Below, piece by piece: positions 40,372 through 42,849 of a DNA stretch of 42,881 nt. Under the pieces are notes generated by a model. The model did no database searches and was not told the origin of the DNA. It saw only the letters and a program-made list of their open reading frames with translations. This DNA is from a bacterium (GTDB taxonomy: Bacteria; Krumholzibacteriota; Krumholzibacteriia; JACNKJ01): NCBI GenBank assembly GCA_016873475.1, contig VGXI01000003.1, positions 15,001 to 57,881 of the forward strand. The letters are read 5' to 3'. Position 1 is the stretch's first letter; every line of letters starts with the position of its first letter. A program made the translations under genes and the position numbers.

Positions 40372-41004
40372 CTAGAGCACCCGCATCACGGCCACGACCT
40401 TGCCGATGATGCGCACCTCGGCGCTGCCGGCCGGCACCCAGATCGGCTCCATCTGGCTGTTCTCCGGCTGCAGGCGGACGCCGCCGGGCTCCTTGTAGAA
40501 GGTCTTCACCGTGGCCTCGCCGTCCACCAGCGCGACGACGATCTCCCCGTCTCGGGCCGTCTCCTGCGGGCTGACCACGATCGTGTCGCCGTCGAGGATG
40601 TGCGCCTCGACCATCGAGTCCCCCACCACCTTGAGCAGGAAGTTGCCCTCCCGCGCGGCAAAGGAGGCGTCGACCTCGATCCACTCCTCGATGTTCTCCT
40701 CGGAGAGGACCGGGATCCCCGCCGCCACCTGTCCGATCAGGGGCAGGCGCAGCACCTTGCCCTCCGCCGATGGCCGGCGCGCGCCCAGCTCGAGCAGCTC
40801 GATGCCGCGCGAGCGCTCCCGGGCGCGGCGGATGTAGCCCTTGCGCTCCAGGGCCTCGAGGTGGTCCTGCACCCCCCGCGGCGAGCGCAGGTCGAAGTGA
40901 CCGGCAATCTCCCTGATCGTCGGGGGATAGCCGTTTTCCCTCAGGAAATCTCTCAGAAAGTCCAGCACGGATCGCTGGCGATCCGTGAGAGCCGTTGGCG
41001 ACAT
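40372..41004 (-). CDS. lexA: SOS repressor LexA
   Basis: Represses SOS genes until RecA-ssDNA triggers self-cleavage. The 210-residue protein has a winged-helix N-terminus (LTDRQRSVLDFLRDF to LERKGYIRR), the cleavage site Ala95-Gly96 (VAAGIP), nucleophile Ser130 (GDSM) and Lys167 (ATVKTF). The recognition helix region is SPRGVQDHLEAL. AGGAGG lies 8 nt before the ATG. It is the last gene of dinB-orfX-lexA, whose promoter carries a LexA-like palindrome, so autoregulation through the operon is likely. No separate lexA promoter is evident. Confidence 0.96.
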   Translation of the reverse strand: MSPTALTDRQRSVLDFLRDFLRENGYPPTIREIAGHFDLRSPRGVQDHLEALERKGYIRRARERSRGIELLELGARRPSAEGKVLRLPLIGQVAAGIPVLSEENIEEWIEVDASFAAREGNFLLKVVGDSMVEAHILDGDTIVVSPQETARDGEIVVALVDGEATVKTFYKEPGGVRLQPENSQMEPIWVPAGSAEVRIIGKVVAVMRVL

Positions 41005-41585
41005 ATCGCCCGCCTCCTGTGGAAGTACCAGCGGCGCCGGACCCGGCGGCTGGCTGCGGCGAGAAGCTGCCGGCCCGGGGCGGCCAAGAGCTCACAAGCA
41101 CCCGAGCACAGGCCGGTCAAGGCCGTCAAGGAGAAGTCGATCGACCACCGCTCCGGTCGGCGGCGGTGAGGAACGGCCGGGGAGAAGGAGCGGGAGAGCG
41201 CGTCTCGCTCTGCCGAAACCCTGCGAGCCGAACCCTCCCTTTCGGCCCGCTGGCGCCCCTCCTCCCCGGTCAAAACGCCGGCTGCCGCCAGCTGCGCCGT
41301 GAGGCGCCGGCCGGCGGGACAGCCCTCCACCCGGGCCAGTGCGGTCGCCGGGTAGATGCCGCCGTCCGGATGGACCGGACAGCCCGGGCAGAGGGCATAG
41401 AGCTCGGGGCCTCCCGGGAGACCGGGAAGATGGGCCTGATTGGCCCGGGAGTCCCCGGGGTGACTGCCTGTGACCAGAAAGCGGCGGGCGTTGGCCAGGG
41501 CCGTCTCCAGGTCCAGGTCGGCACGGGGGCGCCGCGGCGCCGCCGTGGCGAAAAGGTCGATCTGCCGGTCCTCGATCACGCGCAT
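40953..41585 (-). CDS. Uncharacterised protein between dinB and lexA, starting with a beta-clamp-binding-like motif
   Basis: I do not recognise this protein. It starts at the ATG at 41585, sharing one base with the dinB stop (TGATG), after a strong GGGAGGA Shine-Dalgarno 9 nt upstream. Residues 8-12 read QIDLF, matching the QL[SD]LF consensus by which DNA-repair proteins bind the sliding clamp. A Cys-containing segment follows (ALCPGCPVHPDGGIYPATA and VEGCPAG). The frame runs 210 residues and overlaps lexA by 52 bp. The second half (after about residue 115) is Arg/Ser-rich with less strict codon use, so the true C-terminus, or a frameshift, is uncertain. Confidence 0.55.
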   Translation of the reverse strand: MRVIEDRQIDLFATAAPRRPRADLDLETALANARRFLVTGSHPGDSRANQAHLPGLPGGPELYALCPGCPVHPDGGIYPATALARVEGCPAGRRLTAQLAAAGVLTGEEGRQRAEREGSARRVSAERDALSRSFSPAVPHRRRPERWSIDFSLTALTGLCSGACELLAAPGRQLLAAASRRVRRRWYFHRRRAICRQRLSRIASDPCWTF

Positions 41586-42769
41586 CAGCGACTTCCTCCC
41601 AGCAGGCGGGCCCGCTTGACGGTCCCGCGTCCGAAGCGCGCCCCGAGGGCGTCCATCGCGCCGTCCAGGCGCGCTTCGCGTTCCGGCGTCTCGCCGGCGA
41701 AGAGGCTGAGCGGCACGGCGTCCCGGGGAACCAGATTGCGCAGCGAGATGCCCAGCAGCCGCACCTTCTCGCCCCGCCGATCCACCGTGTCCAGCAGGCG
41801 GCGGGCGGACTGGAAGATGAGCAGCCCCTGATCGAGGCACTCGCTGCCGGTGACGGAGCGGCTCAGGGTGCGGAAGGAGGCCGTGCGCAGCTTCAAGGTC
41901 AGCGTGCGGCCGGCCACCCCCTGCCGGCGCAGGCGCCGGGCCACCTTCTCGGCCAGCTCGAGCAGGGTGCGCTCGAGCACGCGCAGCTCGTCCTGATCCT
42001 CGTCGAAGGTGTGCTCGTGGCCCACGGACTGCTCGGCGGGCCGCTCGGCCTCCACCGCGCGCGGATCCTCGCCGCGCGCGAGCCGCGCCAGGCGCGTGCC
42101 CCAGCGCCCGAACAGGCGCTCCAGCTCGGCCTCGCCCAGGCGGTCCAGGTCCCCGATCGTGGCGATGCCCAGCGCCTGGAGCCGCGCCAGGGTCTTGGGA
42201 CCCACGCCCCAGAGGCGCCCCACGGGCAGCGGGTGCAGGAACTCCACGACGCCGCCGGGCGGCACCACGGTGAAGCCGTCGGGCTTCTCCAGGTCCGAGG
42301 CGATCTTCGCCACGAACTTCACCGGCGCCAGGCCGGCCGAGCAGACCAGGCCCGTCTCCTCGCGGATGCGGGCCTTGATGCCGCGCAGGGTCTCCACCGG
42401 CGGCCCGAAGAGCAGTTCGGTGCCGCTGAGGTCCAGGAAGGCCTCGTCCAGGCTGAGCGGCTGCACCCGCGGCGTGTACTCGCGCAGGATGGCCATGATG
42501 CGCTTGCTCTCGGCCACGTAGACCTCCATGCGCCCGGCCACGAAGCAGGCCTGCGGGCAGAGCCGGAAGGCCGTGCGCAGGGGCATCGCGCTGTGGATGC
42601 CGAAGCGCCGCGCCTCGTAGCTGGCCGCCGAGACCACCCCCCGCCGCGTCGGATCGCTGCCGCCCACCACGACGGGCTTTCCCCTCAATTCGGGAAAGTC
42701 CCGCTGCTCCACCGACGCGTAGAAGGCGTCCATGTCGACGTGGGCCAGGGCGGGGGAGGACCGGAACAC
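41585..42769 (-). CDS. dinB: DNA polymerase IV (Y family)
   Basis: Translesion DNA polymerase of 394 residues. The palm has metal-binding HVDMDAFYASVE (D12) and LSLDEAFLDLSG; helix-hairpin-helix GVGPKTLARLQALGI; little-finger domain to the end. Near the C-terminus PLSLF (353-357) stands where a QLSLF-type clamp motif is common, with Gln replaced by Pro. The start is GTG at 42769 with CGGAGGTGG upstream. It is the first gene of the dinB-orfX-lexA operon, under a promoter with a LexA-like site. Confidence 0.95.
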   Translation of the reverse strand: MFRSSPALAHVDMDAFYASVEQRDFPELRGKPVVVGGSDPTRRGVVSAASYEARRFGIHSAMPLRTAFRLCPQACFVAGRMEVYVAESKRIMAILREYTPRVQPLSLDEAFLDLSGTELLFGPPVETLRGIKARIREETGLVCSAGLAPVKFVAKIASDLEKPDGFTVVPPGGVVEFLHPLPVGRLWGVGPKTLARLQALGIATIGDLDRLGEAELERLFGRWGTRLARLARGEDPRAVEAERPAEQSVGHEHTFDEDQDELRVLERTLLELAEKVARRLRRQGVAGRTLTLKLRTASFRTLSRSVTGSECLDQGLLIFQSARRLLDTVDRRGEKVRLLGISLRNLVPRDAVPLSLFAGETPEREARLDGAMDALGARFGRGTVKRARLLGGSR

Positions 42770-42820: not shown

Positions 42821-42849
42821 AGGCTACTATACACTCGTATAGATGTCAA
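42821..42849 (-). promoter_or_regulatory. SOS promoter of dinB-orfX-lexA with LexA-like palindrome
   Basis: Minus strand: TTGACA (plus 42844-42849), 17-bp spacer, TAGCCT (plus 42821-42826). The spacer contains the perfect palindrome CTATAC-N4-GTATAG (42827-42842), of the same CTNT-N8-ANAG geometry as the enterobacterial SOS box CTGT-N8-ACAG. LexA bound there would block polymerase directly. Confidence 0.75.

Follow-up and report, generated by a model that had tools for sequence, protein, structure and literature searches.

To our knowledge, only a handful of partners have been described for the Y-family polymerases of bacteria, namely UmuD, YolD-type proteins, ImuA and ImuB-C. UmuD and YolD (YqjX) have been shown or thought to be subunits of the polymerases encoded next to them. 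The genes of RecA-NT-type Y-family polymerases frequently stand together with lexA and a gene for a small partner. An example is the Geobacter lexA-imuB-C-polY operon, which is damage-induced and transcribed as a single transcript (PMC6511836). The RecA-NT motif itself marks multisubunit Y-family polymerases (PMC6511836, PMC12926913). In PolB2 mutasomes, it is sometimes the polymerase and sometimes its partner that bears the clamp motif (PMC11791011).

Here we describe a locus, dinB-orfX-lexA, from a Krumholzibacteriota genome; the window, that is, the whole stretch of DNA analysed, was 42,881 nucleotides long. The locus resembled the Geobacter operon (PMC6511836) in that it would be a three-gene SOS operon combining lexA, a small protein and an apparently active Y-family polymerase with a RecA-NT-like tail. 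In contrast to ImuB-C, the small protein OrfX had no DUF6504/ImuB-C similarity, had another predicted fold and carried a clamp-type motif, and the gene order differed as well. The UmuD-UmuC and YolD(YqjX)-YqjW/UvrX pairs were also similar, being small SOS-induced proteins encoded beside a Y-family polymerase; however, OrfX had no Peptidase_S24 or YolD (PF08863) Pfam match and was paired with a DinB-type polymerase. With the ImuA-ImuB-DnaE2 mutasome the putative system would share a clamp contact that comes from a non-catalytic accessory protein, although ImuB is a dead Y-family polymerase whereas OrfX had no match among polymerase families and the DinB presumed to be its partner was catalytically intact. 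Finally, PolB2-iRadA-PPB2 offered a likeness in the clamp motif, which either the polymerase or its operon partner carries there (PMC11791011), but the proteins were unrelated and DinB and OrfX showed no clean exchange of the motif.

Organization of the locus

The dinB gene encoded a Y-family DNA polymerase IV of 394 aa with intact catalytic motifs (Pfam IMS, 3.9e-49; NCBIfam DNA polymerase IV, 2.1e-117), and judging from its sequence the enzyme looks active. One base was common to the dinB stop and the orfX ATG (TGATG). The orfX reading began with MRVIEDRQIDLF and ran for 210 codons, ending inside lexA past the lexA start with an overlap of 52 nt, so that both the dinB/orfX and the orfX/lexA junctions were overlapping. 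The operon lexA was the single lexA match in the window genome. The TGATG overlap, the Shine-Dalgarno sequence, QIDLF at residues 8-12 of OrfX and PLSLF in DinB, all of which had been pointed out in a preliminary description of this DNA, were found in place on the minus strand. The coordinates of these and other features are given in Table 1.

Table 1. Features of the dinB-orfX-lexA locus and related sites (positions in the window unless a locus is named)
Feature	Position	Strand	Details and basis
dinB	42769-41585	minus	stop TGA at 41587-41585
orfX	40953..41585	minus	210 aa; ATG at 41585-41583
lexA, SOS repressor	40372..41004	minus	NCBIfam lexA 3.2e-69; ATG at 41004
Promoter of dinB-orfX-lexA, TTGACA-17 bp-TAGCCT	42821..42849	minus	sequence, with G001 and G003 for comparison
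CTATAC-N4-GTATAG palindrome, candidate LexA box, in the 17-bp promoter spacer	42827..42842	minus	sequence
DinB PLSLF, residues 353-357, clamp-motif position without Gln	41699..41713	minus	sequence
DinB C-terminal tail, RecA-NT-like (RecA N-terminal oligomerisation motif)	41612..41680	minus	ungapped match to own RecA
orfX Shine-Dalgarno GGAGGAAG (contains GGAGG)	41592..41599	minus	sequence
OrfX QIDLF, residues 8-12, QxxLF clamp-binding-type motif	41550..41564	minus	four-homologue alignment
OrfX core, residues 60-101, predicted beta-hairpin and two helices	41283..41408	minus	invariant columns, model
OrfX C-terminal basic segment, residues 151-193 (FSLT..LCSG..RRWYFHRRRA)	41007..41135	minus	permutation p=0.0002
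lexA Shine-Dalgarno AGGAGG, within orfX	41013..41018	minus	sequence
Operator copies before mrfA/mrfB homologues	L060 ~1501-1516; L050, L065, L051 1501-1516
DUF6504 proteins	L085 1492-1812; L084 1486-2004 (minus)

The locus was compared with the genomes of its order, four including the window genome (G000 to G003; one family, each from a different genus), and with 76 other Krumholzibacteriota genomes. Only four OrfX sequences exist, each from a fragmented draft assembly. Each of the four genomes of the order had an orfX homologue, which invariably lay between dinB and lexA and whose frame was open into lexA. The overlap of the dinB stop with the orfX start was likewise found in 4/4 genomes, in the forms TGATG, ATGA, ATGA and GTGA. 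Since the homologues shared the gene order, the start/stop overlap and the clamp-type motif described below, orfX was more than a chance reading frame and is a real gene.

The DinB tail REARLDGAMDALGARFGRGTVKR was aligned without gaps to the N-terminus of the genome's own RecA, KDKALELAFSQIEKQFGKGAIMR. In shuffling tests the P values of this likeness were 0.003-0.02 for three of the DinBs, while the remaining one had a P of 0.07. The RecA-NT-like tail was also found in DinBs without orfX.

Conservation and architecture of OrfX

OrfX consisted of three parts. The clamp-type motif was in the N-terminal tail, which was followed by a Cys/His core and a basic C-terminus. Codon-structured conservation, assessed by column permutation of a codon alignment that was made on protein and thus somewhat favoured the orfX frame, was significant for residues 1-24 (p=0.005), 25-105 (p=0.0002) and the C-terminal basic segment. 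In that last segment the orfX frame gave 102 identical residue pairs, and the other two frames gave 60 and 67. By the same test, there was no frame-specific conservation in the linker (residues 106-150) or in the lexA overlap (residues 194-210). Within this overlap, Arg198 was encoded by CGG, AGG, CGT and AGA while the overlapping lexA residues varied. The linker also contained a palindrome, GCCGAACCCTCCCTTTCGGC, at 41227-41246, and GAAAGGGAGGGTTCG-like DNA was kept in the four genomes. Because the DNA was conserved here where codon conservation was absent, the palindrome may have a regulatory function ahead of lexA.

The AlphaFold model of OrfX was confident for the core only (pLDDT 81-89 at residues 61-100, 52 overall), and a model of the core alone had the same fold as in the full-length model. 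The residues C66-x2-C69-x2-H72 and C89 were invariant in the four homologues and lay on the predicted hairpin/helix, where they would form a candidate zinc site. With a pLDDT of about 32-35 at residues 1-20, the N-terminal tail is probably disordered. No clear transmembrane segment was seen in OrfX (best 19-residue hydropathy 0.9-1.4).

A six-frame search (E<=0.001) of the other 76 Krumholzibacteriota genomes returned no orfX homologue, either free or fused, and a permissive search with the core across the phylum gave weak scattered matches only, many of them with stop codons. No significant family match was found for OrfX in Pfam, NCBIfam, PHROGs or PADLOC; in Pfam, the window protein had no match at E<=1 and its three homologues had none at E<=10. 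Matches to UvrA at E 4-10 were regarded as noise. There was no solved relative among the PDB sequences, no significant fold relative in two Foldseek searches, and no homologue in the searched viral contigs, phages and plasmids. By these searches, OrfX is a family that was not previously described and is confined to one order of Krumholzibacteriota.

Clamp-type motifs of OrfX and DinB

The motif near the OrfX start read QIDLF, QTTLF, QTSLF and QTILPF in the four homologues, that is, QxxL(x)F in each. Met1, Q8 and L11 were the only invariant positions among the first 24 residues, and the Phe either kept its position or was displaced by one residue towards the C-terminus. A clamp motif of this length is weak evidence. 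For each OrfX protein, a QxxL(x)F within the first 25 residues was expected in only 0.1-0.3% of shuffles, and the peptide sat in the tail of low predicted order.

At the usual clamp position of DinB, the four genomes had PLSLF, PPGLF, QPSLF and PRTLF. Thus, Gln was present in one DinB of four inside the order (that of G001), versus 18 of the 25 readable DinBs of the same phylum outside it. DinBs without orfX from other families of the phylum were also degenerate at this position (PPSLF, PPTLF, EPELF, EPMLF, ELELF). Given these sequences and the QPSLF of G001, there was no clear complementarity between the DinB and OrfX motifs. The preliminary description, which called the DinB motif degenerate, had proposed that OrfX may be a small SOS accessory that supplies or modulates clamp binding for Pol IV. 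None of the observations that it had named as refuting was made, since every relative in the order had a homologue between dinB and lexA, the motif was retained as QxxL(x)F and the phylum yielded no fused DinB. The accessory part of this proposal gained from the conserved homologues, the retained motif and the SOS operator described below, but the replacement of a lost DinB clamp contact by OrfX was weakly supported.

Promoter, operator and candidate regulon

G001 and G003 had the palindrome at the same position in front of dinB as the window genome, in the spacer of the promoter; the contig of G002 ended inside dinB. Further copies, exact or with one mismatch, were located before two other genes, one for a helicase (G000, G001 and G003) and one for an exonuclease (G001 and G002). 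The helicase matched YprA/MrfA (PDB 6znp, 2.7e-86) and the exonuclease matched MrfB (PDB 8un9, 3.4e-21), which together form a mitomycin repair pair (PMC11194089). No operator copy was seen in the recA promoter regions that were read. Since the palindrome filled the dinB promoter spacer and recurred before mrfA and mrfB, it is probably a LexA box, and the shared operator suggests a LexA regulon in this order that includes the mitomycin-repair genes. The order would thereby gain both a candidate LexA box and a candidate regulon, and the SOS control of orfX that had been assumed earlier was supported by the operator common to dinB, mrfA and mrfB.

Proposed role of OrfX and alternative explanations

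The RecA-NT-like tail of DinB, the precedents for a small partner encoded with lexA and the PolB2 precedent for the clamp motif led us to infer that OrfX is probably a partner of DinB. More specifically, OrfX would be a small SOS-induced accessory subunit of DinB, specific to the order, that adds a clamp contact, and we give this reading about an even chance of being correct. In this model, LexA would repress dinB-orfX-lexA from the palindrome in the promoter spacer, DNA damage would lead to joint transcription of the three genes, and the overlapping stops and starts would yield DinB and OrfX in linked amounts. The N-terminal QxxL(x)F peptide would dock on the sliding clamp, while the CxxCxxH...C core and the basic C-terminus would bind DinB and/or DNA. 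The DinB-OrfX assembly, possibly together with RecA through the DinB tail, could then gain an extra clamp contact at stalled forks. The sequences establish the gene with its conservation, the overlapping junctions, the operator and the motif; LexA as the binder of the palindrome, the binding of metal, clamp and DinB by OrfX and its effect on translesion synthesis were all inferred. A bolder version, which we consider doubtful, is that OrfX is the first member of a new family of subunits for Y-family polymerases. It would then be an adaptor that binds metal and provides DinB with its main clamp contact in trans, the motif having moved from the polymerase to its partner in this lineage. If OrfX were indeed an unrelated protein in a known partner slot with a clamp motif of its own, it would mean that the adaptors taken up by error-prone polymerases differ from lineage to lineage. 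OrfX is in any case a specific, small and testable protein.

There were two main rivals: OrfX could be an SOS checkpoint protein that is merely encoded in the operon, or it could bind the clamp and act alone. Genes adjoining lexA are often unrelated SOS effectors, a point against the partnership with DinB, and lineage-specific genes for SOS division inhibitors such as yneA and sosA are commonly found there. OrfX, narrowly distributed and without a known family, could be an effector of this type (e.g., a cell-division inhibitor) that shares the operon for LexA control and has no direct role with DinB. We consider this unlikely, since the known examples are mostly membrane peptides whereas OrfX was without a clear transmembrane segment, had the Cys/His core and the clamp-type motif, and had its start tied to the dinB stop in every genome of the order. 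It is also conceivable, if less probable still, that OrfX binds the clamp independently, for instance as a competitor of the replicative polymerase that clears or slows forks in the SOS response, and is not a DinB subunit. The motif was conserved in OrfX itself, and a DinB with its own QPSLF, as in G001, need not borrow a clamp contact; however, the translational overlap of dinB and orfX in all four genomes suggests a linked stoichiometry.

Other explanations concerned the origin and the extent of the gene. The position of orfX directly after dinB, with stop and start overlapping, would fit a gene that was split off from a once longer tail of DinB, the alternative named in the preliminary description, or an extension of DinB that was cut off by a frameshift. 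This is highly improbable because DinB was full length, with both its clamp-motif position and its RecA-NT-like tail, no fused version was found in the six-frame search of the phylum, and each OrfX had its own start. Equally improbable is a diverged stand-alone ImuB-C or a YolD/UmuD homologue, which would fit the slot, polY and lexA sharing their operon with a small gene: the Pfam searches gave no match, and ImuB-C in particular was rejected since G000 and G001 have separate DUF6504 proteins and since ImuB-C is a beta-barrel (PMC12926913) while OrfX was modelled as a hairpin with helices. Lastly, the missing codon signal in the linker and the lexA overlap, together with the palindrome conserved as DNA, would agree with a downstream half that is a non-functional open frame over the lexA leader, so that residues 1-105 alone matter. 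Such a reading is very unlikely in view of the conservation of residues 151-193 in the orfX frame and of Arg198, retained through four different codons despite the varying lexA residues. The accessory subunit of DinB remained our preferred reading.

Related genes elsewhere in the genomes

Stand-alone proteins with PF20114 (DUF6504), which we take to be the ImuB-C family, were found in G000 and G001 only, among 78 genomes of the phylum. They were encoded on contigs other than that of the operon, and no polymerase gene was seen beside them. A second lexA-like gene was present in G003 (L090, C102:2734-3315), while in G000 and G001 the operon lexA was the only one found. G003 also had another Y-family gene (L019), which was diverged and encoded AQLELF close to the end. 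The gene that followed it looked like a DnaE-type polymerase gene, and by their sequences these two genes are possibly an ImuB-DnaE2 pair.
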